From: an uncultured Chthoniobacter sp.
GTDB lineage: Bacteria > Verrucomicrobiota > Verrucomicrobiia > Chthoniobacterales > Chthoniobacteraceae
Length of the DNA: 52,051 nucleotides
Reading direction: 5' to 3'
Assembly (NCBI GenBank): GCA_903874975.1
Contig: CAIQUL010000134.1
Span: forward strand, 1 to 52,051
A program made the translations under genes and the position numbers. The notes beneath the pieces are model-generated. The model was not told where the DNA came from. It saw only the letters and a program-made list of their open reading frames with translations, and searched no databases. The stretch's first letter is position 1; the number at the start of each line of letters is the position of its first letter. This document shows positions 22,630-39,738 of the stretch, one piece after another.

Positions 22630-23433
22630 CTAGTGCGCGGCAGGAGCCGCAGCCGGGGCCGGCGCCGGCGCGGGAGTGGCCGGCCTCAAACTCGCCTGCT
22701 CTTTCATCCACGCGTCGAACTCCGCCTGTGTCTCGACTTTCATGATGGCGCGCATGGCGTAATGGCCGGCACCGCAGAGCTGGGCGCAAATGATGTCATA
22801 CTCGCCAGCGACGATGGGCCGGAACCACATCGGGATCATTGTTCCAGGAATGGCGTCCTGGCACATGCGCATGTGCTGGAGCGAGAAGCTGTGGATGACG
22901 TCCTTCGAGGAGAGGTCGATGACGACGGGCTTGCCGTTGACGAGATGCATTTCGTTTTTGGAAATGACATCGTCCTTGCCGGCGGGATCGTTGGGATCAA
23001 GGCCGAGAGGGTTCGAGCCATTGAGGAAGCTGGTGTGAACGCGGCCGAAAATGCCGTCTGCTCCGGCGTAGTGGAAATTCCACGCAAACTGCTCGCCGAC
23101 GGCGCGGACGCGCACGGCATCGGTCTCGGGTGGAAATTGGTCGCCGGTCACGCGTTTGCCCCAAAGCGGGAGGCCGAAACCGAGGAGGAGCACGGCCTCG
23201 ACGAGCACGACGCTGAATTCGAGGTGGGCGGCGGCTTTGCTCTGCACGCCGTGGTAGTCGGCTTTCGGGTTCCGCGATTTGTGAAAGCGGAAGATGGTGT
23301 AAAAGAAATAGCAGATCCAGCCAACGAAAAGGAAGGCCATGAACCAGTGGCAGAGCTCGAGCAGGTGATCGACGGTGCTGCCGTGCTCGGAGGCATTCGG
23401 CAGGATTCCGAGGGCTTTGTTGATGCTGAACAT
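22630..23433 (-). CDS. coxB: cytochrome c oxidase subunit II (CuA)
   Basis: A 267-residue subunit carrying the CuA centre that accepts electrons from cytochrome c. Two N-terminal helices (about 31-48 and 72-90) are followed by a cupredoxin domain with AVGEQFAWNFHYAG and the complete CuA ligand set: His181 in VIHSFSL, then Cys216, Glu/Gln218, Cys220, His224 and Met227 in CAQLCGAGHYAM. The C-terminus is an Ala/Pro tail; no fused cytochrome c domain is present, unlike many caa3 enzymes. It sits after coxA, coxC and coxD instead of before coxA, the more usual place. In this cluster electrons probably arrive from the separate cytochromes c at 27.5-29.2 kb. Confidence 0.95.
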   Translation of the reverse strand: MFSINKALGILPNASEHGSTVDHLLELCHWFMAFLFVGWICYFFYTIFRFHKSRNPKADYHGVQSKAAAHLEFSVVLVEAVLLLGFGLPLWGKRVTGDQFPPETDAVRVRAVGEQFAWNFHYAGADGIFGRVHTSFLNGSNPLGLDPNDPAGKDDVISKNEMHLVNGKPVVIDLSSKDVIHSFSLQHMRMCQDAIPGTMIPMWFRPIVAGEYDIICAQLCGAGHYAMRAIMKVETQAEFDAWMKEQASLRPATPAPAPAPAAAPAAH

Positions 23434-23437
23434 AGAG

Positions 23438-23719
23438 TTACGAGTGGGCTCCGGTTTGCGATTCGGACTGGGAAAATTCGGCGTGCGGCGGGAGTGGCGA
23501 GTTGGCGCGCTTCATGAGCGTGACGCCGAAGGCCACGAGGAGCGCGAGGACCGTGCCAATGAAGCCCAGCAGGAGGAAAACGGCCGCGTTGCTAGCGCCG
23601 GCGAATCTGGAATTGGGATCGCCCATGCAAACCGTGCAGGCGGCGGCCGTGGACGGGAACTGCGTCAGCGCGAGGGCTGCGGCGAGCGCAAAGAAGCGGG
23701 TGCAGGCGGAGCGCGTCAT
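23438..23719 (-). CDS. small secreted/membrane protein with CxxC motif
   Basis: A 93-residue protein with a signal peptide (RFFALAAALALTQFPSTAAA) immediately followed by CTVCMGDPNSRFAGASN, then one transmembrane segment (AAVFLLLGFIGTVLALLVAFG). The CxxC next to the membrane could bind metal or be redox-active. I recognise it only as a small protein of the type found within ACIII/oxidase clusters of related bacteria. It begins overlapping the stop of the preceding small gene by 4 bp (ATGA) and ends 4 bp before coxB, so it is translated with the oxidase subunits. A role in oxidase assembly is inference. Confidence 0.65.
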   Translation of the reverse strand: MTRSACTRFFALAAALALTQFPSTAAACTVCMGDPNSRFAGASNAAVFLLLGFIGTVLALLVAFGVTLMKRANSPLPPHAEFSQSESQTGAHS

Positions 23720-23901
23720 AGGATCAGCTTGCGGGTTTTTTTGAGAAAGAAGATCCCGTAGAGCAGCAGCGCGGCGGCGATCCCGGAGCAGATGATGCCG
23801 AACGCCGGGGCCATGCTGTTCACAAATCCCCACGCCGCGCAGCCTGCGGCGAGCAGGATCGCAATGACGATGAAGAAGATGTGGAAGCCTTTGAGGGACA
23901 T
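23716..23901 (-). CDS. two-helix small membrane protein of the oxidase cluster
   Basis: A 61-residue protein with two hydrophobic segments (FHIFFIVIAILLAAGCAAWG and FGIICSGIAAALLLYGIFFL) and a basic C-terminus KKTRKLIL. It belongs to no family I can name with certainty. It starts 2 bp after coxD and overlaps the next small gene by 4 bp. Position and coupling suggest a minor subunit or assembly factor of the cytochrome oxidase. Confidence 0.65.
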   Translation of the reverse strand: MSLKGFHIFFIVIAILLAAGCAAWGFVNSMAPAFGIICSGIAAALLLYGIFFLKKTRKLIL

Positions 23902-23903
23902 GC

Positions 23904-24296
23904 CTAGTGGTGGGCGTGGGTGGTCCCGAAAATCGGGTCCACGTAGTGTAGTAACGTCAGGAAAAAAAGGCCGGCGACGAAGAACAGGGTGAAATAGAGA
24001 AACTTCCAGACCAACGGCTTCTCGCCTTTCAAGTGCATGAAAATCGCACCGACCAGGCAGACCTTAAACGTGGCGACGATCATACCAATGATGATGTTCC
24101 ACCCGTGACCGGCGAACATTTTGTCGAAGTCCACATAGGACAACCAAACCGTGATGGCCGTGAAGACGACCAAAACGCCGCCGATTCCCCAGTAGAGCCC
24201 GAGGTGCATGTCGTGCTGCGCATGATCGGCGGGCGCGCCGCTATCGTGGGACGCTCCGTGCGCGACTTCTTTGCCGTGATCGTGGGATTGGCTCAT
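23904..24296 (-). CDS. coxD: cytochrome c oxidase subunit IV (CtaF/CoxD type)
   Basis: A 130-residue protein with a His-rich N-terminal stretch (about residues 1-30) followed by three transmembrane segments, in the bacterial subunit IV pattern: LYWGIGGVLVVFTAITVWLS, IIIGMIVATFKVCLVGAIFM followed by HLKGEKPLVW, and a last helix ending LLHYVDPIFG. Subunit IV is a non-catalytic stabiliser of heme-copper oxidases. It follows coxC by 8 bp. The polar N-terminal extension rich in His and Asp is unusual for such a short subunit and resembles the His-rich start of coxA here. Confidence 0.85.
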   Translation of the reverse strand: MSQSHDHGKEVAHGASHDSGAPADHAQHDMHLGLYWGIGGVLVVFTAITVWLSYVDFDKMFAGHGWNIIIGMIVATFKVCLVGAIFMHLKGEKPLVWKFLYFTLFFVAGLFFLTLLHYVDPIFGTTHAHH

Positions 24297-24304
24297 GGGT
24301 TGAC

Positions 24305-25516
24305 TTAGAGGAGGTAGAAAATCGGGAAGACGAAGATCCAGACGAGATCGACGAAGTGCCAGAACAGGCCGACGACCTCGACGCGGTTGGCGAGGTGCTC
24401 GGGGTTGCGCTTAAACATGTTCGCCCCGCCCTCGACCGGCAGCCAGAAGTAGAGCATGATGAGCACCCCCGCGAGGACGTGCAAACCGTGCAGGCCGGTG
24501 ATGGTGAAATAGACGGCAAAGTAAGGGCTGTGCTTCGGGGCAAAGGCGCTCCACGACTCGACGTCTTGGCGTTGGATCGTTCCGTGCGTCTTCGTGGAAC
24601 CTTTGTACCAGAAATGCGGCTTGTCGCTCTCGGGATTGGTCGGGTCGGCGTTGATCGGATCGAGGCCGAGTTCAAAGGTAACGAGCTTAAGGCCCGGAAG
24701 CTTTTCCAACTTCTCTGCAGTTGCTGGAGTTACTCCCGCACGCTCACTGCCATGCATCTTGGTGGAATGGATGGTCTGAACGCTGGGATCGTGGTGGGCG
24801 GCACCTCCGTGCCCACCCTCTTTGGCGATTTCGAGATCGTGCTTGGGCAGGAAGTTCTCGAGTTTCACCGAGGGCATTTCCTTGAGCTTCGCCGCGATCC
24901 TCTTCCGATCCCGTTCCAGTTCGCTGGTTACAGATTTCGATTCTTTGCCACTCTTCAGCCGATCATCAATCTGTTGGAGATTGGTTTCCTGTTCCTTGAC
25001 GATGCCTTCCCAGACCTTCGGGTCATAGGTCATCGTAACTTCATGAAGGTGCCCGGATACTTCCACCCGCGGAGCGAGTTTCTTCCTCTTCATCCCTTCA
25101 TTGTCGAGATACGGCTCATACTTCGCGATCGCGTCCTTTTTAATGAACGCGCCGAAGTGCTCAAACTTCTGGGGCCACTCGTAGGCCAGCTTGACGATGA
25201 GGAAGAGCGCTCCACAGAGGATCGAGATGCCCATCCAGAGTTTGTACTGCGAGAACTTCCGCATCTTCAGCGAAGCCCACGCCAGCACCACCGTGACCGA
25301 GGAAAGGATGAGAACGACGGTATTCGCCGCGCCGACGGGAACGTTCAGCAGACCGTGCGGCCAGTAGCCGTCCTCGGCACCCATGCGGAGGAAGATATAG
25401 GCGGAGAAAAGGCCGCCGAAGAGCATGACTTCCGAGGCCAGGAAGAGCCAGATGCCGAGCTTGGCGTTGTAAAGCCCGGTATCGGGACGGGCGGTGACTT
25501 CGTGCGGGATTTGCAT
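24305..25516 (-). CDS. coxC: cytochrome c oxidase subunit III with a large internal insertion
   Basis: A 403-residue protein, about 200 longer than bacterial five-helix subunit III. The normal parts are present: helix 1 with KLGIWLFLASEVMLFGGLFS, helices 2 and 3 (about 60-82 and 93-112) ending AYEWPQ, helix 4 with YFTITGLHGLHVLAGVLIML (about 336-356) and the last helix VVGLFWHFVDLVWIFVFPIF. Between helices 3 and 4, residues about 124-328, lies a hydrophilic insertion containing a likely coiled coil (KEQETNLQQIDDRLKSGKES and ELERDRKRIAAKLKEM), a His/Gly-rich stretch (GGHGGAAHHD) and a mixed C-terminal part. The insertion is in frame and the flanking helices are intact, so the gene looks functional. 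Confidence 0.92.
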   Translation of the reverse strand: MQIPHEVTARPDTGLYNAKLGIWLFLASEVMLFGGLFSAYIFLRMGAEDGYWPHGLLNVPVGAANTVVLILSSVTVVLAWASLKMRKFSQYKLWMGISILCGALFLIVKLAYEWPQKFEHFGAFIKKDAIAKYEPYLDNEGMKRKKLAPRVEVSGHLHEVTMTYDPKVWEGIVKEQETNLQQIDDRLKSGKESKSVTSELERDRKRIAAKLKEMPSVKLENFLPKHDLEIAKEGGHGGAAHHDPSVQTIHSTKMHGSERAGVTPATAEKLEKLPGLKLVTFELGLDPINADPTNPESDKPHFWYKGSTKTHGTIQRQDVESWSAFAPKHSPYFAVYFTITGLHGLHVLAGVLIMLYFWLPVEGGANMFKRNPEHLANRVEVVGLFWHFVDLVWIFVFPIFYLL

Positions 25517-25525
25517 GAGCGAAAC

Positions 25526-27400
25526 TTAGTGGGCAGGCGCCGCGGCGGGCGGCGTGGGACTGTGGGGTTTGTCGGCTTTCGGCGCTTCGGTCTGCGGGGT
25601 GAAGTCCTTGTCCGCACCGGGGACGCTGTATTCGTACGGTCCGCGGTAGACGGTGATTTCCTTGGTGAAATTCCCGTGCGGCGGCGGGGTGGGCGTGTCC
25701 CATTCCACGGTCGTGGAATCCCACGGGTTGTCGCTGGCCTTGCGTCCGTACCAAATGCTCCAGCAGAAATTGATGATGAAAGGAATCTGCGCCAGCCCGA
25801 GGAGGAAGGCGGAGACCGACATGAAGTTATTCCAGTGGATGACCGGCTTGATGATCTGCTCGTAGGCTGCGCCGCCGTCGTACCAGCGGCGATGCACGCC
25901 CGCCATACCTTGCAGGAACATCGGGAAAAAGATGCCGTTGATGAAGATCAGCGAGCCCCAGAAATGCATACGCCCGAGGAACTCGTTGAGCATCCGCCCG
26001 GTGGCTTTCGGGTACCAGTAATAGACGCCCGCGAAGATCGCGAAAATCGTGCCCGGCGCGACCACGTAGTGGAAGTGACCGATGACGTAGTAGGTGTCGT
26101 GCAGGTAGAGATCGACGGCATTGAAGGCCAGCGGGATGCCGGTCAGACCTCCGATACCGAACATCGGCAGGAACGCCGTGGCGAAGAGCATCGGCATGGT
26201 AAAGCGGATCGAACCACCCCAGAGGGAGAGCATCAGTGCAGTCACGAGGATGACCGACGGCACCGAGATCATGACTGTGGTAACCTGGAAAAAGGCGGAC
26301 ACTTTTGCGCCCATGCCCGTCATGTACATGTGGTGCGCCCAGACGACGAAAGAGAGGAAGCCTAGAACGAAGATCGCACCGACCATGGCCTTGTAGCCGT
26401 AAAGCGGCTTGCGGGTGTTATTCGCGATGATCTCCGCGACCATGCCGATGCCGGGCAGGATGAGCACGTACACCTCCGGGTGCGCGAGGAACCAGAAAAG
26501 ATGCTGCCAGAGAATCGGGCTGCCGCCACCGGACCACTGGGTGGTCGCCCCGTTCACGATCAGGCCAGTCGGCATGAAGAAGCTGGTGTCAAACGCGCGA
26601 TCCATGAGCTGCATGACGCCCGCGGCTTCGAGCGGCGGGAAGGCGAGCAGGAGCAGGAAGGCGGTGACGAACTGCGCCCAGACGAAAAATGGCAGGCGCA
26701 TCCACGTCATGCCCGGCGCGCGGAGCTGGATGATCGTGGCGATGAAATTCACCGAGCCGAGGAGCGAGGCGGTGATGTTGAAAACCATGCCGGTGACCCA
26801 AAGGGTCTGGCCGTTCATAAAGACGTGGTTGAGCGGGCCGAGGTCGGCGATGCCGGAGAGCGGCGGATAGGAGGTCCAACCAGATTTGGCTGCGCCGCCC
26901 GGCACGACGAACGAGACCAACATGAAGAGGCAACTGATGAAGAAGCACCAGAAGCTCGCCATGTTGATGCGCGGGAAGGTCATGTCGATCGCGCCGATCT
27001 GGAGCGGCACGACGAAATTGCCGAACGCCGCGAACGCCACCGGCACGATGCCGAAGAACACCATGATCGTGCCGTGCATCGCGCCGAAGGAATTGTAGCC
27101 GTCGGCGGTGAGCACACCGGGGATACCCTTGGCATCCGACTGGAACGCGCTCGAACCGAAGAGTGTCTGGAGCAGTCCGCCGATGTAGGGCACCGCCTCG
27201 CCGGGATGCGCGAGCTGCCAGCGCATGACCATCATCAGCATGAAACCGAACATGAGGAACGCCAGTCCGGTCACGCCGTACTGGATGCCGATCATCTTGT
27301 GATCGGTGGAGAAAACCCATTTCCGCCAAAAGCCGGGATCGTAATGATGGTCGTCGTGTGCATGGGCATCGTGCGCATGCGTGAGGGCGGCGGTGGACAT
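25526..27400 (-). CDS. coxA: cytochrome c oxidase subunit I (A-type heme-copper oxidase)
   Basis: The 624-residue catalytic subunit reduces oxygen and pumps protons. Twelve helices and the full ligand set can be read: His109 for the low-spin heme in GAMHGTIMVFF, His307 with cross-linked Tyr311 and Glu309 in AHPEVYVLILPG, CuB His356-His357 in VVWAHHMY, and His442 and His444 in VIGHFHYV for the two hemes. Lys337 in GYKAM fits the K-channel, and Asp139 in QIGAIDMTFP the D-channel entrance. The C-terminus extends beyond the usual length with a Pro/Lys-rich tail. The N-terminus is His/Asp-rich. It is followed by coxC after 9 bp. Confidence 0.97.
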   Translation of the reverse strand: MSTAALTHAHDAHAHDDHHYDPGFWRKWVFSTDHKMIGIQYGVTGLAFLMFGFMLMMVMRWQLAHPGEAVPYIGGLLQTLFGSSAFQSDAKGIPGVLTADGYNSFGAMHGTIMVFFGIVPVAFAAFGNFVVPLQIGAIDMTFPRINMASFWCFFISCLFMLVSFVVPGGAAKSGWTSYPPLSGIADLGPLNHVFMNGQTLWVTGMVFNITASLLGSVNFIATIIQLRAPGMTWMRLPFFVWAQFVTAFLLLLAFPPLEAAGVMQLMDRAFDTSFFMPTGLIVNGATTQWSGGGSPILWQHLFWFLAHPEVYVLILPGIGMVAEIIANNTRKPLYGYKAMVGAIFVLGFLSFVVWAHHMYMTGMGAKVSAFFQVTTVMISVPSVILVTALMLSLWGGSIRFTMPMLFATAFLPMFGIGGLTGIPLAFNAVDLYLHDTYYVIGHFHYVVAPGTIFAIFAGVYYWYPKATGRMLNEFLGRMHFWGSLIFINGIFFPMFLQGMAGVHRRWYDGGAAYEQIIKPVIHWNNFMSVSAFLLGLAQIPFIINFCWSIWYGRKASDNPWDSTTVEWDTPTPPPHGNFTKEITVYRGPYEYSVPGADKDFTPQTEAPKADKPHSPTPPAAAPAH

Positions 27401-27513: not shown

Positions 27514-27990
27514 TTACTTGGCGGGGGCGTCGTCTTTCCAGGCATCAAGTTCGGCCTGGGTCCACGGCGTTTTGCGCTCGGCATGCTTTTTCCGCGCGGA
27601 GGCGACGACCTCGGCAGTGACGGGCGCGGGCGTGTTGCCAAAATTCGCGCGGACGTAGGTCATGATGGCGGCGATCTTGTCGTCGGTCAGCGTGGCCTCC
27701 TGCGGCGGCATGATCTGGTTGTAGGGCTTGCCCTCGATGGTGAACGGGCCGGCGTTGCCTTTGAGGATGATGGACGCGAACCGCTCCGCCGAGCCGTTGA
27801 CATAAGGCGACTTGGCGATCGGAGGAAATACTGCGGGCAGGCCCAAGCCGGTCGGCTGATGGCAGGCCACGCAGATCAGCATGTAATGCTTTTTGCCTTC
27901 GGCGAGCTGGTCGGCGGCGGCGTCCTGGGCGGTCGAGACAGCGGTGAACGCGACGGAGGCGGCGAGGAAGGCGAGGGTTTTCTTAGTCAT
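27514..27990 (-). CDS. secreted mono-heme cytochrome c
   Basis: A 158-residue periplasmic cytochrome c with a cleavable signal peptide (MTKKTLAFLAASVAFTAVST) and one heme site, C40-VA-C43-H44, followed by QPTGLGLPAVFPPIAKS. A methionine in the IMPPQEA segment is a likely axial ligand. Its whole mature domain, including an unusual C-terminal TPWTQAELDAW tail after the heme domain, is closely similar to each of the two domains of the adjacent di-heme cytochrome, so the three arose by duplication. It lies between that gene and coxA and probably carries electrons to CuA of CoxB. The start at 27990 is set by the signal peptide; the open frame extends upstream only over non-coding sequence. Confidence 0.92.
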   Translation of the reverse strand: MTKKTLAFLAASVAFTAVSTAQDAAADQLAEGKKHYMLICVACHQPTGLGLPAVFPPIAKSPYVNGSAERFASIILKGNAGPFTIEGKPYNQIMPPQEATLTDDKIAAIMTYVRANFGNTPAPVTAEVVASARKKHAERKTPWTQAELDAWKDDAPAK

Positions 27991-28018: not shown

Positions 28019-29200
28019 TTACGGTTGGGCGGCGGGAGAGGCTGCGCCGAAGGCTTTGAGTTCGGCCTCCGTCCACGGCGCGGTGCGGGCGGCGTGTTCC
28101 TTGCGCGCGGCGGCGACCACTTCGGGTGCGACTGCCGCGCTGGTGTTGCCAAAGCTGGCCCGGACGTAGGTCAGAATCGACGCGATTTTCGTGTCGCTCA
28201 ACATCGCTTCCTGGCCGGGCATGGCGTTGTTGTAAACCTTGCCATCCACGGTGAGCGGCCCGGCCACGCCCTTGAGGATCATTGCGGCAAAGCGCTTGGG
28301 ATCACCGGTCACGTACTCCGTCTTGGCTAGCGTAGGGAAAACACCGGGCAGCCCCAGGCCCGTCGGCTGATGGCAGGCGACACAGATGGCCATGTAGTTC
28401 TTTTTGCCCTCGGCCATGAGATCGGGAGTGCCGGCCGCGGGTGCTGCGGCCGGGGCGGCACTGGCTGTGGGAGCTGCGCCTCCGCCCTCGTCGGGGAAGT
28501 TGGCGTCGGCGGGAATCTTGAGCAGTTCGGCCTCGGTCCACGGGGCGGTTTGCGTCGCGAATTCCTTCTTCGCGGCGAGCACCTTGGCCTCGGAAATTTC
28601 CCCGCCGGTGTTGCCCCATTCTTTACGGATATACGAGGCCACGGCGGCGATCTTCTTCGGTGAAAGCTGCGCCTCCCAAGGCGGCATCGCGCCGTTGAAC
28701 GGCTTGCCGTCCACGGTCATCGGGCCTTGGGCACCCTTGAGCAGGATGGCGATCAACCGCTTTTCTCCGCCGTTCACGTACTCGGATTTGGCGAGATGCG
28801 GGAACTGCCCGGCGACGCCCAGGCCGTTCGGCTGGTGGCACGCCACGCACTGGCCGTAAACCGCCTTGCCCAATTGCGCGAGCGACTGCGGGGCCTCGGC
28901 TGCGCCACTTTTCGCACCGGCTTTCGCAGGCTGCGGGAAGAGGACCGCCGGTGAGCTTTCAAACTCGTTATAGACGTTGGCGCTGAGGCCGCCGTGGAAG
29001 ACGCCAAAGTAGGTGCCAGCCCAGACCATCGCGCCGGCGCAGATGGCGGTGAGCCAGAGCGGCATCGGGGTGACATCGGCGGAGGGCTCGGGCTTTTCGC
29101 GCTGCACGGAAGCGTGGACTTCCGTGATGTCCGCGCTTTCGCGGTAATCCACGCGGTCAGGGTTTTCCTTCATGGGTGAGGGATCGTTGGGCTGGCTCAC
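28019..29200 (-). CDS. membrane-anchored di-heme cytochrome c
   Basis: A 393-residue protein with a cytoplasmic N-terminus of about 45 residues, one transmembrane helix (PLWLTAICAGAMVWAGTYFG), and two homologous cytochrome c domains with heme sites C118-VA-C121-H122 and C273-VA-C276-H277. Each domain ends with the same TAPWTEAEL tail, and an Ala/Pro linker (about 237-262) separates them. The anchored arrangement resembles the CcoP subunit of cbb3 oxidases, next to a CcoO-like gene with which it overlaps by 4 bp. It is a candidate electron shuttle between ACIII or the CcoO-like protein and the oxidase. Confidence 0.92.
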   Translation of the reverse strand: MSQPNDPSPMKENPDRVDYRESADITEVHASVQREKPEPSADVTPMPLWLTAICAGAMVWAGTYFGVFHGGLSANVYNEFESSPAVLFPQPAKAGAKSGAAEAPQSLAQLGKAVYGQCVACHQPNGLGVAGQFPHLAKSEYVNGGEKRLIAILLKGAQGPMTVDGKPFNGAMPPWEAQLSPKKIAAVASYIRKEWGNTGGEISEAKVLAAKKEFATQTAPWTEAELLKIPADANFPDEGGGAAPTASAAPAAAPAAGTPDLMAEGKKNYMAICVACHQPTGLGLPGVFPTLAKTEYVTGDPKRFAAMILKGVAGPLTVDGKVYNNAMPGQEAMLSDTKIASILTYVRASFGNTSAAVAPEVVAAARKEHAARTAPWTEAELKAFGAASPAAQP

Positions 29201-29889
29201 TTGGCGGCGACCTCCGGTGCGGACCCCTTCACTTCCTTGAGCGGGTGGCTTTTATCGAGCGATAGCAGATAGGCGACGAGCTTCGTGGCCTCGGGTTTGG
29301 GCACGACTTCGTAGCCGGGCTCCGGGGCGTCCAGGCCGGTCAGGTCGAGGGCGTCCACGGAGCGCTGGCCGCTGATCTTTTTGGTCTCAAAAAGGTAGCG
29401 GTAGGGCGGCATGTTCGAGCTTTTGATGACCGTGCGCGGCGCGTAGAGGTGGAGCAGATGCCACGAGGCATCGCGCTTCTTTGGCTTATAGGTCGCGTAT
29501 TCGCCCTCGTTTTCGTTCCGCCATTTCGGGGAGCCGACATTCGCGAGATCGGGGCCGATGCGCATGCTGCCGAGGACCGGGGTTTTCTCGAAGATGTAAT
29601 CGCGCGCCACGGTGCGGCGCACCCCCCAGCCACGCGCAAGGTCAGTGCCGTTCTGCTCGTCGCGCACCTGTTGCGAGTGGCAGTAGAAGCAGCCTTCCGA
29701 CTGATAGATGGCGCGACCCTCTTCATGGCTCACGTTTTTCACCGGATAGATGTCCACGATTTTCCCCTCGTCTTCCGCGATCTGCGGCTGGAGCCCGCCG
29801 AGTTGCTGCTGCGGGAGCAGGACCAGCGCGTAGCAGGAAAGGGCGAATGACCCGATGATCCCGGCGAACAAATGGAGCGAGCGATTCAT
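29197..29889 (-). CDS. ccoO: CcoO-like membrane-anchored mono-heme cytochrome c
   Basis: A 230-residue protein with an N-terminal transmembrane anchor (AGIIGSFALSCYALVLLP) and a heme c site CFYCH at residues 67-71 in EGCFYCHSQQVRDEQNG, then RGWGVRRTVARDYIFEKTPV, LGSMRIGPDLANVG and HLYAPRTVIKSSNMPPYRYL. These segments are the signature of CcoO/FixO, subunit II of cbb3 oxidases; Met in SNMPPY is the likely axial ligand. The heme-binding residues are intact. It begins directly after a CcoN-like gene whose own metal ligands are lost and overlaps the following di-heme cytochrome gene. Confidence 0.93.
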   Translation of the reverse strand: MNRSLHLFAGIIGSFALSCYALVLLPQQQLGGLQPQIAEDEGKIVDIYPVKNVSHEEGRAIYQSEGCFYCHSQQVRDEQNGTDLARGWGVRRTVARDYIFEKTPVLGSMRIGPDLANVGSPKWRNENEGEYATYKPKKRDASWHLLHLYAPRTVIKSSNMPPYRYLFETKKISGQRSVDALDLTGLDAPEPGYEVVPKPEATKLVAYLLSLDKSHPLKEVKGSAPEVAAK

Positions 29890-31371
29890 TTAGTGTTTCT
29901 CCTCCCCGATGGGTGCGAAGAGCGTGGGTTCCCCGCCTGGCTGGCCGATGCGGAAAAGCATGAGCAGGAAATGGAAGGCAAAGATCACGTGGCCCAGCGC
30001 GAGCATGACCCACCCGAGGGTCGCGCCGATATGATACCGCACGCCGTCCTCGATGACCTGCGAGAAGATCATCCCCGGATCAGCCAGCGCCGCGCCGCTG
30101 GCGATACCGCCGACAGCGAGGGAGACGATCAAAGTTCCCGCGCCGTAGGCCACAGCGAGAAAGTGCCAGCGGATCATCGTGGAGGAGAGCCACTCGCACC
30201 CGACGAGGCGCGGCAGGATGTAGTAGATCGCGCCAAACATCACCATGCTGAAGAACGCGTAAAGCAGCAGGTGCGTCTGGGCGGACTGGAAAAAAGTGAA
30301 GTGGAGCAGGCGATCAAACGACCGCAGCGAGGCGAGCAGTCCGACGACGCTGGCGATGGTGAAAGAGAGCGCGCCAAAGACGGTGAAGCGGATGGTTGGC
30401 GAGTGATAGACCATGTGGTATTGGCCATCCATGGTGAGCAGCAGATTGGCTGAAACCGTGGCGATCTGGACGATGAGCAGGATGGTGGCGGCGATGCTCA
30501 GCGTGACCAGCCAGACGGGCAGCGGCCCGCCGCTCAGGCGCACCGCTCCGGTCAGCCCGGAGAAAAGGATGAAGGCCCAAAATCCCGTGGAGGCGAGGTG
30601 ATAGCTATGCACCGGGCGATTGATGACTTTCGGGATGAGGTAATACGCGGTGGCGAGGCCGATGGCGGTGATGAAGACGTGGAGGAAATTCTGCGTGGCC
30701 CACGCGGCGACGAGACTTTGCACCACCCCCGTGACGCCGGGGAGCTGGATGGAGAGATGCGCGAGGCCAAACGTCCACGTGAACCAAAACAGCGCGGCCA
30801 CCAGATACCACACCGAGATGTAGGCCGGAGCCTGGCGGCGGTAGCCAAAGAGCAGCGCGCCCCACAGCCCGACGAGCATGTAGCCGAAGAGCATGAGCAC
30901 CGCGGCACTGCCGGGGATTTCCAGACCTTCGACGCCGGTCGTCTTGCCCGCGAGAATCTGCCCGATTCCGAGGGTCAGCCCGGCCTGCCAGAAGATCGCG
31001 CCGGTGACGAGGACGGCGGGTATTTTGATCTGCACGCGGCAAAGACGCGCGAGCAGCCAGATGGCGACGCCCATGCCGGAGAGCGTGGCCCAGCCGTAGG
31101 CGAGCGCGTTGTTGTAGGCGGGCAGGATGCGGCCGTAGGTGAAAATGGGGCAGTCAGCGAGAAAGCCAGGGCTGTGGAGCTGGACGGACGAGATGAAGCC
31201 GAGAACCGTGGCGAGGAGCAGCCAGAGGATCGCGCTGCCGAAGAAAAAGAGCACCGGACCGGACGCGGAGGCGTCGATGGCGGCGCGCTCGGCAGCCTGC
31301 ACCTGCACGGCGCTGGGCGCGGCCGGAGCCGGGGCGGTCGTCGGAGTGGGAGCGAGGGCGGCGGCGGTCAT
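29890..31371 (-). CDS. CcoN-like cbb3 subunit I lacking most metal ligands
   Basis: A 493-residue polytopic protein recognisably homologous to CcoN, with segments such as FTYGRILPAYNNALAYGW, WATQNFLHVFITAIGLATAY, YYLIPKVINRP, FWAFILF and MFGAIYYILPRL. By-eye alignment to canonical CcoN shows that the residues that bind metals are replaced: low-spin heme His to Tyr86; the CuB His of the YGHN motif to Gln227; the active-site Tyr to Ser271; the CuB His-His pair to Val277-Arg278; the heme b3 His of the GHVH motif to Gln365. Only its neighbour, His367, remains. The frame is intact with normal membrane character, so it is not simply decayed. It cannot be a standard oxygen reductase and may be a structural anchor for the CcoO-like cytochrome. 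Confidence 0.85.
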   Translation of the reverse strand: MTAAALAPTPTTAPAPAAPSAVQVQAAERAAIDASASGPVLFFFGSAILWLLLATVLGFISSVQLHSPGFLADCPIFTYGRILPAYNNALAYGWATLSGMGVAIWLLARLCRVQIKIPAVLVTGAIFWQAGLTLGIGQILAGKTTGVEGLEIPGSAAVLMLFGYMLVGLWGALLFGYRRQAPAYISVWYLVAALFWFTWTFGLAHLSIQLPGVTGVVQSLVAAWATQNFLHVFITAIGLATAYYLIPKVINRPVHSYHLASTGFWAFILFSGLTGAVRLSGGPLPVWLVTLSIAATILLIVQIATVSANLLLTMDGQYHMVYHSPTIRFTVFGALSFTIASVVGLLASLRSFDRLLHFTFFQSAQTHLLLYAFFSMVMFGAIYYILPRLVGCEWLSSTMIRWHFLAVAYGAGTLIVSLAVGGIASGAALADPGMIFSQVIEDGVRYHIGATLGWVMLALGHVIFAFHFLLMLFRIGQPGGEPTLFAPIGEEKH

Positions 31372-32003
31372 TTCGTTGGCTCGGGATTATCGGTCGGATT
31401 GGCCGGCGGGGCGGCGGGTGGTTCCGGGGCGGGCGCGGGCTCGGCGGGCTTCTCGGGCGCGGGCGCGGTTGGCGGAGGAACGGTGGGAGCAGCGGCCGGA
31501 GCGGCCGGTTTCTCGGGAGCTGGAGCGGCAGGGACTGGCGCAACCGGAGCAGGCGCTGCGGGAGCTTCTTTCGCCGCTGGCGCGGGGAAACGCACGGTGT
31601 CCGCGCCCTGCGGAGCGGATGGAAGCGCCGCGGGCGGCGGCTCGGCGGACTTCGGGTCGGCGACCGGCATCGGCAGCGGCGCTTCGACTTTCACGGACGA
31701 CGGCGCGGGTTTTTTCGCCCTCAGGTCGGCGACGACCAGCTTCATCGCATCGGCGATCGGGACGTGGACGGTGCCCTTCGCTTTGTCCACCCACCCCAGC
31801 GAATCGAGTTTGGCCTGCGCTTCGGTGTCGAGTTTCGTGCGCGCCTCCAGCCGCTGGGCGGCGCGCTTCGTTTCGACCTCATCGACCGGCTTGTACGAGG
31901 CCAGGCGGCCGCCAAAGACGAGGGCGACGACGCCAAACGCGGCGGCCGTGCCGAGGAAGACGACGAAGGCGTTGGGCGTGCGGTGGGAGGTTTCGGACGC
32001 CAT
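31368..32003 (-). CDS. single-pass membrane protein with Pro/Ala-rich tail, ACIII cluster
   Basis: A 211-residue protein with one N-terminal helix (FVVFLGTAAAFGVVALVFGG), a short helical domain (about residues 40-95) in which LDSLGWVDKAKGTVHVPIAD resembles small proteins encoded next to ACIII in other bacteria, and a long low-complexity tail of Pro, Ala, Glu and Lys (about 105-211). It begins 1 bp after actF and its stop overlaps the CcoN-like start by 4 bp. It may correspond to an accessory ACIII subunit or an assembly factor. The tail could span the periplasm. The family is not identified with confidence. Confidence 0.7.
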   Translation of the reverse strand: MASETSHRTPNAFVVFLGTAAAFGVVALVFGGRLASYKPVDEVETKRAAQRLEARTKLDTEAQAKLDSLGWVDKAKGTVHVPIADAMKLVVADLRAKKPAPSSVKVEAPLPMPVADPKSAEPPPAALPSAPQGADTVRFPAPAAKEAPAAPAPVAPVPAAPAPEKPAAPAAAPTVPPPTAPAPEKPAEPAPAPEPPAAPPANPTDNPEPTK

Positions 32004-32004
32004 A

Positions 32005-33201
32005 TCAGTTGCTGAGTTTGATCGAGCCGAGCAGGCGGGGATCGCGCATCGGGAAGAGGTTCGATTTCACAAGATTCCGCAGGAAGAGCCAGCCCATGAG
32101 ACCGCCGATCCCAATGAACGAGAACAAGTCGAACATGCTCGGGCTGAAGCCCGTGGGATGCAGCGCCGGCAGGACGATGACATACACGTCGAGGAGCTGC
32201 ATGAGCAGGATCCAAACGGCGACGTAGTTGATGTATTTCGTCTTTTTCGTCGCCTGCATGAGCAGCACCGGGAAGGGTAGAAAGAAGCGCCCGATGACGA
32301 GGAACTGCGAGAAATACCACCACGACTCGGTGTTGCGGATGCGGAAGTAGATCGTCTCCTCCGGGATGTTCGCATACCAGATGAGCATGTATTGGGAGAA
32401 GCCGATGTAGGCCCAGAAAATCGTGAAGGCCAACATGAACTTACCCATGATGTGGTAGTGCTCGTTGTTGACCGTCTTGAGGTAGCCTTTCGACTTCAAC
32501 CAAGTAATGACCAGCACGAGCAACGACATGGAACTGCCCGCGGCTCCGGCGAAAAGATAGACGCCCCACATGGTCGAGAACCAGTGGTAGTCAAGACCCA
32601 TCAGCCAGTCGAAACCGGCAAATGAAATCGAGAGCGCGACGACGACGATGCCGCCGATGCCGAACTTGCGCATGACGTAGGTGTGCTTCGCCGCGCCGTC
32701 GGCGTCCTGGGCGATGGAGCGCTTCGCGAGGGTGGAGGAAACCCACCAGAGGAAGAAAAAGTAGCCCGCCGCCCGGCAGTAAAAGAAGGTCTGGTTCAGA
32801 TAGCCGGACTTTGCGTCGAGGAGCGCATCGTCACCGGGTTGGAGGTTCCACCATTTCCAAAGGAACGGCGCGCAGACCAGCAGCGGCAGGAAAAGGAGCG
32901 CGAACCACGGCAGCACCCGCGTGAGGTTTTCCATCTGCCGGCGAACGAGCACCGACCACTCGGAATCCGTGGCGTGCTGGAGGCTGGTCCAGAAAAGCGC
33001 CCCGCAGGCAATCGTGAAGAAGTAAGCGAAGGCGAAGAGCCAGGAAAACGCGAACTGCTGCCGCGCGACAAAGAAGCCAATCGCGCTGACGCCGATGCCG
33101 CCGACGGCCGCGCCCAGCAGGATCTGCTGCAGGCCGCCGAGGTGCTTGGCGTCGAACTTCTCCGGTTCGGGCGGCGTGATTTCGTGAGAGTGATCGCTCA
33201 T
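32005..33201 (-). CDS. actF: ActF, quinone-binding membrane subunit of alternative complex III
   Basis: A 398-residue protein with about ten transmembrane helices, a shorter relative of the NrfD-type ActC. Marks include FFTIACGALFWTSLQHATDS, RQMENLTRVLPWFALLFLPL, VALSISFAGFDWLMGLDYHW, FSTMWGVYLFAG and the conserved FTIFWAYIGFSQYMLIWYAN followed by IPEETIYF. In ACIII, ActC and ActF are the two large membrane subunits that support quinol oxidation. The length is typical. It overlaps the actE stop by 4 bp. Confidence 0.92.
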   Translation of the reverse strand: MSDHSHEITPPEPEKFDAKHLGGLQQILLGAAVGGIGVSAIGFFVARQQFAFSWLFAFAYFFTIACGALFWTSLQHATDSEWSVLVRRQMENLTRVLPWFALLFLPLLVCAPFLWKWWNLQPGDDALLDAKSGYLNQTFFYCRAAGYFFFLWWVSSTLAKRSIAQDADGAAKHTYVMRKFGIGGIVVVALSISFAGFDWLMGLDYHWFSTMWGVYLFAGAAGSSMSLLVLVITWLKSKGYLKTVNNEHYHIMGKFMLAFTIFWAYIGFSQYMLIWYANIPEETIYFRIRNTESWWYFSQFLVIGRFFLPFPVLLMQATKKTKYINYVAVWILLMQLLDVYVIVLPALHPTGFSPSMFDLFSFIGIGGLMGWLFLRNLVKSNLFPMRDPRLLGSIKLSN

Positions 33202-33899
33202 GGCTTGGCTTGAAGTTCCTGCTGTTGCGCCTCGGGCAGGTCCGCGAGCTTCACGCCCTGGCTTTTCTGCAACGCCCGGAGGTAGGCGACGATCGCCCAG
33301 CGGTCCTCGATGGCGATCTGTGGTCCGTAGGCCCCCATGGTGTTCTTGCCGTTGGTGATCGTGGAGAAAAGCTGGCCGTCGGGCATCGCGCGGATGCGGT
33401 CGTCCTGGAGGTTCGCGATGGCTGCGACGCCATACTGGCCGACGATGCCGTTCGCGAGGCCGGCTTTGCCGTGGCAGACCGCGCAGTGGATGTCGTAGCG
33501 CTCCTGTCCGCGCGGGATGAGCTTCTCGAGCTTTACCGTGAGTTCCACCGGGAAGCCGTCGCCGTAGCTGTCGCCGAATTTTCCGGTGTTGTAATAGTCC
33601 GGCTGGTTGGCAAAGCCCGCAGGTTCAAACTCCCCGTTTTTCGCCCCGGCCTGGAGATAGCCGCCCTTCAGCGCGTAGCCCAGCGGGACGGTGCCCTCGA
33701 TGGGCTTCCGCGCGGAATTTCCATCCGCGAAGAATCCGCTCGGCGCCTGCGGCTGGTATTTCGGCTGGTGATCCATGTCCCGGAAAATCTCAATCGGTGG
33801 CCGCAGGCTGGGCGCGCCGCCGTGATCGAAACGCAGACCCGCCAGCGCGATGACTGCGACCGCGCCGAGAATGAAGGCGATGAAGAAGTAGCGGAGCAT
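33198..33899 (-). CDS. actE: ActE, mono-heme cytochrome c subunit of alternative complex III
   Basis: A 233-residue membrane-anchored cytochrome c with an N-terminal helix (residues 4-21), a long ActE-specific segment including EIFRDMDHQPKYQPQAPSGF and then GTVPLGYA, and a heme site CAVCH (139-143) in RYDIHCAVCHGKAGLANG. Met188 in GKNTMGAYGP is a likely axial ligand. This layout is diagnostic of ActE, which carries electrons from ACIII toward the oxidase. It is placed between actD and actF in the conventional act order. Confidence 0.93.
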   Translation of the reverse strand: MLRYFFIAFILGAVAVIALAGLRFDHGGAPSLRPPIEIFRDMDHQPKYQPQAPSGFFADGNSARKPIEGTVPLGYALKGGYLQAGAKNGEFEPAGFANQPDYYNTGKFGDSYGDGFPVELTVKLEKLIPRGQERYDIHCAVCHGKAGLANGIVGQYGVAAIANLQDDRIRAMPDGQLFSTITNGKNTMGAYGPQIAIEDRWAIVAYLRALQKSQGVKLADLPEAQQQELQAKP

Positions 33900-33901
33900 G
33901 G

Positions 33902-34447
33902 TCAGTCGTGAATGAGGGTGACGTGACTGCCGCCGACTTCCTCGAGCAGCGCGCGGGTCTTGGTCTCGGAAAACTTCGCGTCACGCGCTTCGACGACGAT
34001 GAAGAAGCCGTCGTCTGTCACGCGCGAGAAACGCTCCCAGTTAAAGACCGGGTGATACCACTTCGGGAGCTGGTTCATGATGAGCAGCGCGAAGACCGTG
34101 GTGAACGCCGAGAAGAGCACGGTCAGCTCGAACATGATCGGGAAAAACGCCGGCAACGTGGCCCAGTTGAAGGGCTTGCCGTGAACGATCATCGGGTAAA
34201 TTCCCCACGATGGGATGAAGGTCAGGAGCGTCGCCGTGAGCGTGCCGATGGCGCCGCCGATGAGCACCGGCGTGCTCAGCCAGGACTTGCCGAGGCCCAT
34301 GGCCTTGTCCATGCCGTGCACGGGGAAAGGCGTGTGCACATCCCATTTCGAGAAACCGGCGTCGCGGATTTTCTCTGCCGCTTTCATCAGCGCCGCAGCG
34401 CTCTCAAACTGCGCGCCGAGTCCGTAAATCTTGCGGTATTCAGCCAT
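33902..34447 (-). CDS. actD: ActD, DUF3341 subunit of alternative complex III
   Basis: A 181-residue protein of the DUF3341 family, ActD. Residues 1-45 form a soluble start (YGLGAQFESAAALMKAAEKI), with the ActD signature FSKWDVHTPFPVHGMDKAMG following, and two transmembrane helices come after (about 58-80 and 95-125, with LTVLFSAFTTVFALLIMNQL). The C-terminal domain includes VTDDGFFIVVEARDAKF. ActD is a non-redox subunit of ACIII. It starts 1 bp after actC ends and stops 2 bp before actE starts. Confidence 0.93.
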   Translation of the reverse strand: MAEYRKIYGLGAQFESAAALMKAAEKIRDAGFSKWDVHTPFPVHGMDKAMGLGKSWLSTPVLIGGAIGTLTATLLTFIPSWGIYPMIVHGKPFNWATLPAFFPIMFELTVLFSAFTTVFALLIMNQLPKWYHPVFNWERFSRVTDDGFFIVVEARDAKFSETKTRALLEEVGGSHVTLIHD

Positions 34448-34448
34448 A

Positions 34449-35870
34449 TCAGTGCTGGCCCTCCTTTTTCGGTTCGTGATGCGGATCGGCCTCTGGCGTG
34501 ACGAGTTTGACCTCGAACATGCAGATCATCGGCAGGAAGCGCATGAAGAGCAGGAAGAGCGAAAGGAAGATGCCGAACGTCCCGACGAACGTCCAAATTT
34601 CCACCCACGACGGGGAGTAGTGCCGCCAGGACGACGGGAGAAAGTCCTGCGCCAGCGAAGTAACGATGATGACGAAGCGCTCGAACCACATACCGACGTT
34701 GACGAACATGCAGACGGTCATGACGGCGATGTAGTTCGTCCGCATGGATTTGATCCAGAAGAGCTGCGGCGAGATGACGTTGCAGAACATCATCACGTAG
34801 TAGGCCCAGGCGTACCAGCCGGGGTTGTCGATCCCCATGCGGGCGCTGAAAAAGGTGAACTTCTCGAACGGATTGCCCGAGTAGTAGGCCATGAACAACT
34901 CGGTGAGGTAGGCGTAGCCGACGATCGTGCCGGTGAGCAGGATGATCTTCGACATCTTGTCCACATGCTGACGCGTGACGAGGTCGTCGAGCTGCGGATA
35001 AAGCAGCCGCGCCGGCAGCAGGATGGTCAGCACCATGGCGAAGCCGCCGAAGATCGCGCCCGCGACGAAATAGGGCGGGAAGATGGTGGTGTGCCAGCCG
35101 GGGACGATGGACGTGGCGAAGTCGAAGGAGACGACGGAGTGGACCGAGAGCACCAGCGGAGTGGAGAGGCCGGCGAGGAGCAGATACGCCATTTCGTAAT
35201 GCCGCCACTGGCGGTTCGAGCCGCGCCAGCCGAGGGCGAAAATGCCGTAGAGATATTTCGCGACGCGGGACTTCGCCCGGTCGCGCAGGGTGGCGAGATC
35301 GGGCACGAGGCCGGTGTACCAAAACAGCACCGACACCGTGAAATACGTCGAGACCGCGAACACGTCCCAGAGCAGCGGCGAACGGAAGTTCGGCCAGATA
35401 CCGTTGGCGTTCGGGATCGGCGCGAGGAACCACGCCATCCACACGCGGCCGACGTGAATGCCGGGGAAAATGCCGGCGCAAACGACGGCGAAGAGCGTCA
35501 TGGCCTCGGCGGCGCGGTTGATGGACGTGCGCCACTTTTGCCGGGTGAGGAAAAGGATTGCCGAGATCAGCGTGCCGGCGTGGCCGATGCCGATCCAGAA
35601 AACGAAGTTCGTGATGTCCCACGCCCAGCCGACGGTCTTGTTTTCTCCCCAGACGCCGACGCCGTTCGAGATCTGGTAGCCGATGCAGAACAAGCCGATC
35701 AGGGCGATCAGCGAGCAGGGCAGGAAAGCCACCCACCACCACAGCGGGGTGCGTTCTTCGACGATGCTCGAGACCTTGTCGGTGATCCACGTGTGCTTGC
35801 GGTCGTTCGTGACGAGCGGCACGCGCTCGAGTTCCTTCGGCGTGGTCAAAGTGACGGCGGATTCAGCCAT
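34449..35870 (-). CDS. actC: ActC, NrfD-type quinone-binding subunit of alternative complex III
   Basis: A 473-residue NrfD/PsrC-family membrane protein with about ten helices. Recognisable segments are [79 protein letters not shown] and [20 protein letters not shown]. ActC and the iron-sulfur ActB form the core where quinol is oxidised in ACIII. The start codon overlaps the actB stop (positions 35870-35872), showing tight coupling. Confidence 0.95.
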
Positions 35871-38800
35871 TAGTGTTTCCCTCCGGTTTCATGCCCCGCC
35901 TTTTTGTGGCCTTGCTTCGGCCGCACGGCCTTGCCGATATCCTTGGCGCCGGGCATCTCGGTATTAGGGTTGCGGATGCGCGCGAGGTAGGTCACGCGTG
36001 AACCGACGTTGAGGTATTCGAGAAGCCGGTAGCCGCGCTCGCTGGCCTTCAGCTTGGAGACGGCGCTTTCGGGATTGTTGATGTCGCCGAAGGTGATCGC
36101 GTCCGCCGGGCAGGCCTGCGCGCACGCCGTGGTGAAGGCGTCTGTCGGGATGCGCACGTCGCCGGAATCGCGCACCGCGACTTTGGTCGCGATCTTCGCC
36201 TCCTGGATGCGCTGCACGCAGAAGGTGCATTTCTCCATCACGCCGCGCATGCGCACGGTGACGTTCGGATTCTTCGACATCTTCGTCACGTCCTCCGCGC
36301 CGCGTTCCGAGGTGAGGTTCCACTCGTAAAGGCCGGTGAAGAGCTTGCGGTCGTCCGGGTTTTTCGCCCGGCCGTGGACGTTGCGCTCGTTGTAGTCGAA
36401 AAAGTTGAACCGCCGCACTTTGAACGGGCAGTTGTTCGCGCAGTAGCGGGTGCCGATGCAGCGGTTGTAAGCCATCACGTTCAGGCCGTCCTCGCTGTGG
36501 ACCGTGGCATTGACCGGGCAGACGGTTTCGCACGGCGCGTTTTCGCAGTGCTGGCACATCATCGGTTGCGACACCATCTCGGGGTCGGCGTCGTTTTTGT
36601 CCGTGCTGGCAAAGTAACGGTCGGTGCGAATCCAGTGCATCTCGCGCCCCTCGGCGACCTGCTCCTTGCCGACGATCGGGATGTTATTCTCCGACTGGCA
36701 CGCGACCATGCACGCCGAGCAGCCGATGCAGGTATTGAGATCGACCACCATGCCCCACGCGTGCGGATCCAGGCTCTCCGGCTTGTTCAGCGGCGGGTTG
36801 GTGTAAAGCGAGACGTTCGGCGGGATGTGGGCGTCCATGCCCATCTTCTTCGCGAAGTCCGGCTTCGCTTTGTATTCCTCGAGCGTGGCCTCGCGGGTGA
36901 GATCGCTGCCGCGGCCTTCGAGCGCCCAGTGCTCCTGCGTGAGCGCGAGCTTGTAGGCTTTGCCGGTGGCTTTGGCCGTCGCGCCGGTCACGAAATATGG
37001 GCTGGCGGTGGTCCGCAGCGGGTAGGCGTTGAAGCCAGTATGGGCGCCGACCTGGCCGACCACGGTGCGACCGTAACCGAGCGCGATGGAGATCGAATTC
37101 TCCGCGTGGCCGGGCGCGAGGATCGCCGCGACGGTCAGGGTGCTGTTGCCGACGGTGATCGCGATGAGGCCGTTGTCCTCGACGCCGAGTTTCTTCGCCG
37201 TAGCCGGGCTGATCAGCGCCGCGTTGTCCCAAGCAATCTTGGTGATCGGATCGGGGATTTCCTGGAGCCAGCCGTTGTTGGTGAAACGTCCGTCGTCCAC
37301 TTTCGCGCAACCGGTGAAGACGACTTCGTAAGCCCCCTCGGCGAGCGCCGGCAGGGATTTGCCGGTGACCGCCTTCGCCGCCGCCGCGCCGTCAAACTTC
37401 AGCGCCTCGAGTTTCGCGGCGCTGTCGGCGAGGAAGCCGTCGTGCAAAAACTTCGCCCACGCACCGACGAACTCCGTTGGATTCGCGAGCGCCTTGAAAG
37501 TTTCCTGAATCAGCTCCGGCCCCGTCGGCTTCAGCAGGCCCGCAAACTTCGCCAGCAGGTCCAGTTCACTCCAGCCGCCGAAGAGCGGGAGGATCATCGG
37601 CTGCACCGACACGTAGCTGCCGTCCGCCGCCAGACCGTCGCCCCAGCTTTCGAGATAATGCGTGAGCGGTGCATTCCAGTGCGCGTGCGCCGCCGTTTCG
37701 TCCTCGTAGTAGCCGAGGCGCACGACCATCTCCACCGACTTCTGCCGGTCCGCCCATTTCAAGTCTTCGGGTGCGTTGTAAACCGGGTTACCGCCCACGA
37801 TGACGAGCGTTTTGACCTTCTTGTCATCAATGTCTTTCGAGAGTTCCGCGATCGACTGCGCGGGCTTCTCGGTGAGCTTCCGCCCGACGATTGTCTTGCC
37901 GATGTTGCCCAGCGCCGCGTTGATCGCCGCCACCAGCACCTGCACCGCCGCCGGTTGCCGCGCCCCGACCAGCACGAGGCTCGCGCCTTTGTTCTTCAGC
38001 AAATCTTCCGCGGAAACCTTGACCCACTCGGCATTGAACTGCATCGCCGGAGTACCAAATGCCGTCGCCGTTTGCACGAGCGCAGCGTCCTTGGTGGCCG
38101 TGGCGATTTCCGCCGCCAGCGCCAGCGCGAACGCCCCGATCTGGCTCGCCGGCACGCGCATCCGGTGGTCCGCGATGCCGCCCGTCACTGTGTAGCGATT
38201 CTCGGCCACGTAGAGCCGGTTCATCTTCGAGCCTGGCCCCGTCACTTTCCGCCGCGCGGAAAACTCCCGGATCGTGTTCACGTCGCCCTCGACGCCGAGG
38301 AAATCGCAGTCCAGCGACATGATGACGTCCGCCTTGTCGATCACCGGCACCGCCGCCACGCCGCCACCAAACGCCGCCGCCGCCGCCTCGTCGGCGAGTT
38401 CGGTGCCGAGCGGTTCATAGACGGTCCACGACGCCTTCGGAAATTTCTTCGCGATCTCGCCGCGCAACCGCTCGCGGGTCGGCGAGTTGTTTTTCTCGAG
38501 CAGGAACGCCAGCCCCGCGCCATCCCCCGCCGCGCCGATGAGCCCGTCGAGCGCCTTCTCAAACGCCGCCGCGTCGGACTTTTCGCCCTTTTTCACAAAA
38601 AAGCGCGCGCGATCCGTGTCGTAAAGATCGAGCACGGACGACTGCGAGTGCATGTCGGTCGCGCCCTTGCTCACCGGATGCTGCGGATTGCCCTCGATCT
38701 TCGTCGGGCGGCCATCATGCGTCACCGCCACCAGCGGCGCGTAGCCCCGGCGCGACGGCCGCGCCGTGGTGTAAAAGATCGGCTTGCCCGGGATCGACCA

Positions 38801-39067
38801 CTCCACGCCGCGCGTGAAGGGCACCAGATGCTTCTCCGGCCGGCGGCACCCCGCGAAACTCAGCCCCGCCAGCGCCATCGAGGCACCCATGAGCTGGAGG
38901 AAATTGCGGCGCGAAACCTCGCCCCCCTGCATCTCCGCCGCGCCCTGCGGAAACTCCCGCGTCAGCCAGCCGCGGAACTCCGGCGTATCGCCGAGCTGCC
39001 CGAGCGAGCGCCAGTACTTGCGGCCCGTCGCGGGCTCCGTGGGATGTTGGAGGATTCGTTTGCTCAT
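35870..39067 (-). CDS. actB: ActB, Tat-exported iron-sulfur/molybdopterin-like subunit of alternative complex III
   Basis: A 1065-residue fusion of a molybdopterin-oxidoreductase-like domain and an iron-sulfur domain. The N-terminus has an internal Tat motif in [19 protein letters not shown], about 50 residues in, as in the 'TAT-variant-translocated' family. The first 740 residues resemble the catalytic subunit of DMSO-reductase enzymes but, as usual for ActB, show no N-terminal cluster cysteines. From about residue 777 come the cysteine groups [49 protein letters not shown] and a final CTFC...[10 protein letters not shown] set, for three [4Fe-4S] and one [3Fe-4S] clusters. It overlaps actA and actC by 4 and 1 bp. 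Confidence 0.96.
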
Positions 39068-39738
39068 CGGTGACAGCCTGCGCAGTTTTTATCCGGCGGA
39101 TTGATGTGCCATTTCTTCTTCAGCCCCAGCCCGAGTTCGAGTTGCGCCTCCTTCGGCGTCTGATCCTTCGCCAGCGGCGCCTGCCAGCCGAGATCCGTGA
39201 TTTTGTCCAAAGGCCGCAGCGCATTCTCCGGCGCCCGGTGGCAGTCTAGACACCACGACATCGAGTGCGACTCCGCGTGATAGACGACATCCATTTTGTC
39301 CACCCGCCCGTGGCAGCTCACGCACGAGACGCCGCGGTTCACGTGCGCCGCATGGTTGAAATACACGTAGTCCGGCGTCTTGTGGATCTGCACCCACTCG
39401 ATCGGCTTGCCCGTCCGCCACGACTCATGGAGCGGCGCGAGCTTCGGGTTTTCCTTTTGCACCCCCTGGTGGCAGTTCATGCAGACCTGCGTCGTCGGCA
39501 AATTTGAATGCGCCGCCACCTCCACAAAACTGTGGCAATACCGGCAATCCATCCCGAGTTGCGCCACATGCACATCATGCGGAAACGGGATCGGCTGCGC
39601 CGGCTTATACCCCACGCGCGTATAGAGCGGCGTGAAATAATACGGCACCGCCAACGACACCGCCCCACCCGCGATCAGGCCGCACAGCACGATTTTGAAC
39701 GGGAGAATATTGCTCCCACGTGGAAAAATATTCGCCAT
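39064..39738 (-). CDS. actA: ActA, pentaheme cytochrome c subunit of alternative complex III
   Basis: A 224-residue protein with one N-terminal membrane helix (about residues 14-34) and five CxxCH heme sites, at 65-69 (CRYCH), 86-90 (CMNCH), 139-143 (CVSCH), 163-167 (CLDCH) and 219-223 (CAGCH). HDVHVAQLGMDCRYCH and YFNHAAHVNRGVSC are ActA hallmarks. Five hemes is the usual number. It is the first gene of the minus-strand respiratory cluster, preceded by a CRP-type palindrome and a possible promoter. Confidence 0.95.
   Translation of the reverse strand: MANIFPRGSNILPFKIVLCGLIAGGAVSLAVPYYFTPLYTRVGYKPAQPIPFPHDVHVAQLGMDCRYCHSFVEVAAHSNLPTTQVCMNCHQGVQKENPKLAPLHESWRTGKPIEWVQIHKTPDYVYFNHAAHVNRGVSCVSCHGRVDKMDVVYHAESHSMSWCLDCHRAPENALRPLDKITDLGWQAPLAKDQTPKEAQLELGLGLKKKWHINPPDKNCAGCHR

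Follow-up and report, generated by a model that had tools for sequence, protein, structure and literature searches.

Among the closest described counterparts of the locus considered here are the alternative complex III (ACIII)-cytochrome aa3 supercomplex of Flavobacterium johnsoniae and the ACIII-caa3 of Rhodothermus marinus, in both of which ActABCDEF is accompanied by nearby genes for an A-type oxidase. No CcoN/O/P-like module is known from the published structures of either. An ACIII-linked 'C-type oxidase' has been noted in Opitutaceae and in verrucomicrobial methanotrophs (Refojo et al., 2010, as cited in PMC8498564); it is of the same family, and in the same position next to actF, as the gene examined in this study. 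Another useful comparison is the CcoN of P. stutzeri (PDB 3mk7), subunit I of a cbb3 oxidase, which shares with that gene's product the fold, about 22% identity, the helix order and a place upstream of ccoO/ccoP; it differs in that the protein described below lacks the positions for low-spin heme b, heme b3, CuB and the active-site Tyr, and is encoded in an ACIII cluster.

The ACIII cluster and its CcoN-like gene

The window, that is, the whole stretch of DNA analysed, comprises 52,051 nucleotides from an uncultured Chthoniobacter sp. (contig CAIQUL010000134.1), and all of the features located below are on its minus strand. In the direction of reading of that strand, ActA with five CxxCH motifs (39064-39738), ActB (35870-39067), ActC (34449-35870), ActD (33902-34447) and ActE (33198-33899) together occupy 33198-39738, followed by ActF (32005-33201), which matches the R. 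marinus ActF (PDB 6f0k) at E 1.3e-65. A Pro/Ala-rich single-TM protein (31368-32003), for which no Pfam or NCBIfam match was found, lies between actF and the CcoN-like gene, overlaps the latter by 4 bp and has a counterpart at the same place in most, though not all, homologous clusters. The CcoN-like frame itself (29890-31371) starts with ATG and encodes 493 amino acids. It directly adjoins CcoO (FixO; 29197-29889), which has the heme c motif CFYCH, intact as had been stated in an earlier note on this DNA, and the axial Met160; a CcoP-like cytochrome c with two CxxCH (28019-29200) overlaps ccoO by 4 bp. Then come a small monoheme cytochrome c that is a relative of the CcoP-like one (27514-27990, start codon inferred), CoxA (25526-27400), subunit I of an A-type oxidase in which the canonical His motifs HPEVY, HH and GHFH were recognized by eye, and a region (22630-25516) encoding CoxC (24305-25516), a Cox4-like protein (23904-24296) and CoxB (22630-23433), the last with a CuA motif and without a fused cytochrome c. 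The series ends with ctaA/ctaB and an SCO gene.

The CcoN-like protein belongs to the heme-copper oxidase superfamily, having the 12-TM COX1 fold according to Pfam (COX1, PF00115, 2.2e-39), an AlphaFold model and the structural matches of that model. The model, made for a single chain from an 18-sequence alignment, reached a pLDDT of 87.8 and a pTM of 0.89, and its best PDB matches were CcoN (query TM 0.86, target TM 0.90). The score against TIGR00780 (ccoN) was 108.5 bits, far below the curated cut-off of 583.15. The ccoO and ccoP-like partner genes with their heme c motifs are present as in a C-type oxidase, and a separate, conventional intact-type fused CcoNO is encoded elsewhere in the same genome.

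Loss of the heme and copper ligands

With the P. stutzeri CcoN (3mk7) as the reference for ligand numbering, the phmmer alignment is free of gaps around every ligand site; its gaps are confined to roughly residues 166-215 and the vicinity of the C-terminus. In place of H60, a low-spin heme b ligand, the protein has Tyr86 (codon 31114-31116), at the CuB ligand H207 it has Gln227 (30691-30693) and at the CuB pair H257-H258 it has Val277-Arg278 (30538-30543); the heme b3 proximal H345 is replaced by Gln365 (30277-30279) and the active-site Y251 by Ser271 (30559-30561). Only His367 (30271-30273), equivalent to the second low-spin heme b ligand H347, is kept, so that five of the six ligand His and the active-site Tyr are gone and neither the CuB triad, the heme b3 site nor a bis-His low-spin site is complete. 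An alignment of 111 sequences gave identical ligand columns for this protein, and both alignments agree with the by-eye assignments of the earlier note. No substitute conserved His for the lost ligands was found in the protein on the 111-member alignment: H403 is a non-ligand His present in active CcoN too, and H66, H357 and H467 lie outside the ligand columns. An alternative alignment that would bring back the missing His at other positions was sought with phmmer, the 111-sequence alignment and a column check, and was rejected since none was found. Judged by its residues, the CcoN-like protein is almost certainly not an oxygen reductase.

Amongst the 111 aligned homologues, all seven ligand positions are kept in 41, six in one and no more than three in 69, with none in between; 18 retain none of the seven. 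The CuB triad is found in none of the 69 ligand-less members, the b3 His in three and the low-spin heme pair in two (L051 and L052, of the same order as the window). As many as 52 distinct ligand strings were counted, the replacement residues varying from clade to clade. Columns that are near-invariant in the intact group and lost in the rest comprise the ligands together with, for example, R83, E148, W223, N228, R450 and G454, and 18 core columns show an identity of 90% or more in either group. At the level of the alignment this is the pattern to be expected where cofactor binding has been lost and the fold retained. The single member with six positions, L140 in genome G037, has Arg for CuB His207, the other six ligands intact and coxB adjoining; it may reflect either the onset of ligand loss or a mistake in the assembly.

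The ligand-less gene is under purifying selection. Ten pairs gave dN/dS values of 0.07-0.27, the window against its relative G002 (83% identity, same losses) gave 0.153, and the intact pairs that could be computed gave lower values of 0.03-0.06, indicating a constraint somewhat relaxed in the former. A sequencing artefact or recent decay, which the earlier note had named as grounds for abandoning its view of a selected protein with a preserved frame, was rejected on account of these ratios and of the relatives with the same losses (G002 and many more distant ones). Another genome of the same genus, G004, has a CcoN-like frame that is interrupted close to residue 277 (L143, 5780-5920), through either a sequencing error or a real loss.

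The number of losses depends on the tree used, all phylogenies here being quick trees. A concatenated ActC-D-E-F tree required 12 parsimony changes, or 15 under irreversible loss (11 with branches below 95 support collapsed), and a CcoN tree with the ligand columns omitted required only three. The ACIII and CcoN trees thus disagree on the number; the CcoN tree brings long branches together, and the CcoN data did not reject two groupings seen in the ACIII tree. A single ancestral loss was rejected in the largest group by the ACIII data (AU p 1e-69, quick tree). Ligands were lost independently at least three times and probably about 11-15 times, horizontal replacement of ccoN alone being possible too. 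The term paralogue, used in the earlier note, fits this history only loosely, as the gene belongs to a CcoN lineage of its own, linked to ACIII, some members of which are fully intact and within which loss has recurred.

Distribution, cytochrome partners and coxA

The family profile search covered 289 genomes of one phylum, Verrucomicrobiota, with a few named outsiders (L044, L046 and L048, in which CcoN is intact and not beside ACIII), and the neighbourhoods of around 100 members were inspected. An ACIII-linked CcoN-like gene was carried by 65 of the 66 genomes in the window's class whose ActC is at least 55% identical to that of the window (at least 57% in all except the methanotroph G299, at 55%). 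It is located directly inside the act cluster, after actF and before the ccoO and ccoP-like genes, which bears out the link to ACIII and the conservation across genomes that the earlier note had considered. The lone exception, G045 (L178), a relative within the methanotroph family, has an ACIII cluster without ccoN, ccoO, ccoP and coxA, in which actB-F and the Pro-rich ORF are followed directly by coxC, cox4 and coxB also being kept. No ACIII-linked CcoN-like gene was found in the 17 genomes of genus g27, whose ActC is more distant (44-56% identity), and in the 22 genomes of other classes that have an ActC the search recovered, at the cut-off applied, only a fused CcoN or nothing, and no unfused ACIII-linked gene. 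The near-universal occurrence in the window's class and the absence from other classes at this cut-off make the CcoN-like module a feature of the ACIII clusters of this class.

The heme c partners have been retained throughout, in agreement with the earlier note: all of the 71 ligand-less loci keep CxxCH in CcoO and at least one CxxCH in the CcoP-like proteins. Several CcoO positions have drifted in these loci; the share with Tyr in CxYCH drops from 93% to 25%, and W143, H147, S158 and Q74 relax. This would fit a loss of electron delivery to heme b of CcoN. Of 69 ligand-less loci, 51 retain the axial Met of CcoO and 12 have Cys instead, the latter falling in two separate clades (L077, L078, L084-L086, L088, L091, L093, L094, L137, L138 and L141). 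Such a replacement suggests a His/Cys heme of much lower potential, and the CcoO 'wire' may be altered in some clades. All of the 41 CoxB found in the clusters have the CuA motif and lack CxxCH, so that separate c-type cytochromes are needed to feed CuA.

Within the 90 ACIII loci of the tree, an A-type coxA adjoins 32 of the ligand-less loci and is not found next to the other 30; of the intact loci, 27 lack an adjacent one and a single locus (L053) has one. By raw counts the ligands are lost in 32 of 33 loci with adjacent coxA compared with 30 of 57 without, a difference for which an independent-pairs test, with only 4-6 pairs, gave no significance. A strict tie between ligand loss and adjacent coxA was rejected, and the suggestion in the earlier note that such genes always sit between actF and coxA fails for 30 of the 62 ligand-less ACIII loci. 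The presence of an A-type oxidase anywhere in the genome was also rejected as the cause of loss, since most genomes, whether of the intact or the ligand-less group, have A-type genes. In L053 (G026) an ACIII-linked CcoN with all of its ligands adjoins an A-type oxidase whose genes are in a different order, coxB-coxA-ctaA-ctaB-coxC; L053 and L140 may represent early stages of ligand loss.

Possible roles and the methanotroph 'cbb3' genes

The reading preferred here, to which a probability of roughly 60% is given, is that the protein is an oxidase-derived, cofactor-free membrane scaffold of the ACIII cluster, holding the CcoO and CcoP-like cytochromes c beside ACIII. It would have originated as the CcoN of a C-type oxidase whose ccoN-ccoO-ccoP genes joined the ACIII cluster in the window's class; the heme and copper sites would then have been lost in many lineages, including that of the window, and the protein kept as a membrane scaffold. 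The CcoN-like protein most likely binds ACIII and keeps the two cytochromes in place, and their hemes may pass electrons from ActA/ActE to CuA of the A-type oxidase, which has no fused cytochrome c of its own. In favour of this reading are the ligand losses, the retained fold, the purifying selection, the linkage to ACIII, the heme c motifs of the partners, the CoxB proteins with CuA but without CxxCH, and the separate intact-type CcoNO of the genome; weighing against it are the replaced axial Met in part of the CcoO proteins, the 30 ligand-less clusters that have no coxA beside them, the ACIII cluster of G045 that does without ccoN, ccoO and ccoP, and the partly relaxed constraint. The earlier note had arrived at a similar proposal; its view of a selected, oxidase-derived protein that does not reduce oxygen is upheld by the residues and dN/dS, and its docking role is plausible only.

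The main rival explanation is that the protein, as a membrane partner of ActF/ActC, serves the assembly or stability of ACIII, and that CcoO and the CcoP-like protein accompany it off the main electron route. The ACIII linkage, near-universal in the class whether coxA is adjacent or not, and the drift of the axial Met and other CcoO positions would both agree with this, as would the finding that ActE of F. johnsoniae is dispensable for electron transfer, which points to flexible electron routes in ACIII (PMC8552683). The persistence of heme c motifs in CcoO and the CcoP-like proteins of every ligand-less locus suggests, however, that the hemes matter, and this explanation is regarded as rather unlikely. 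It is improbable that the empty oxidase body retains a proton path and, as an ion- or proton-conducting subunit, helps ACIII to couple to the membrane potential. Proton translocation by ACIII is debated (PMC8498564), the fold is retained (TM 0.86-0.90) and the ligand positions are often occupied by polar Q, R, K or S; yet the replacements differ between clades, and no conserved new polar network was seen, only one column being conserved in the ligand-less but not in the intact group.

That the protein still participates in electron transfer with one heme, held by His367 and a second residue, is very improbable. H367 is kept in 62% of the close clade of the window, and L051 and L052 retain the bis-His low-spin pair, but H367 occurs in only 22% of the 69 ligand-less members, the position facing it varies between Y, F, C, S and A within the clade, and at least one of the pair is lost in 67 of the 69 with no conserved substitute. 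Least probable of all is that the gene is a pseudogene in decay, left over from a redundant oxidase: the lost ligand sites and the broken frame of L143 would be in keeping with decay, but full-length frames occur in dozens of genera, with dN/dS well below 1 and the same neighbours everywhere.

The ligand losses have a bearing on published annotation. A cbb3-type oxidase has been counted in Methylacidiphilum (PMC8498564, PMC10205796, PMC11102522). Five of the genomes surveyed (G077, G089, G107, G186 and G299), with 2-4 pmoA-family genes each and sizes of 2.2-2.5 Mb, are on these grounds verrucomicrobial methanotrophs. In all five the ACIII-linked CcoN is ligand-less, with the ligand string SESSHFV or ADAAHQT, and is the only CcoN-like gene found; the other COX1-family proteins there appear, by eye and by length, to be A-type, B-type-sized or NorB-like. 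The methanotroph loci L171-L175 have a NorB-like COX1 protein of 465-534 amino acids, and of two methanotroph NorB-like proteins tested on the ccoN model only one scored, weakly (35 bits). In G107, nosD and a nosF-like ABC ATPase gene lie within the ACIII/oxidase cluster and upstream of the module (L124), in agreement with the arrangement reported for Methylacidiphilum caldifontis IT6 (PMC11102522).

In the literature, as cited in PMC8498564, the ACIII-linked C-type oxidase is treated as an active cbb3, whereas the residues disagree for the methanotrophs and for 16 of the 23 members of family f16. The ACIII-linked CcoN of G134, a single-contig genome of 5,957,605 bp, has the ligand string QQGRHQQ. 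No description of a ligand-less CcoN was found in the open-licence literature. Published lists that count the ACIII-linked gene as a cbb3 oxidase are likely to be wrong; those of the three papers named above would be corrected for Methylacidiphilum, and inferences of O2 affinity from 'cbb3 genes' in Verrucomicrobiota need a residue check.

The chances are about even that a core oxidase subunit has been converted, at least three and perhaps around 15 times, to a cofactor-free structural subunit of an ACIII supercomplex, and that the methanotroph 'cbb3' does not reduce O2. The metal centres are usually taken as the mark of subunit I of the heme-copper oxidases, and a conserved branch without them shows that the body of the enzyme is useful by itself. 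Among related genomes the members range from intact through intermediate to ligand-less, which gives a natural series on what the cbb3 body does for ACIII.
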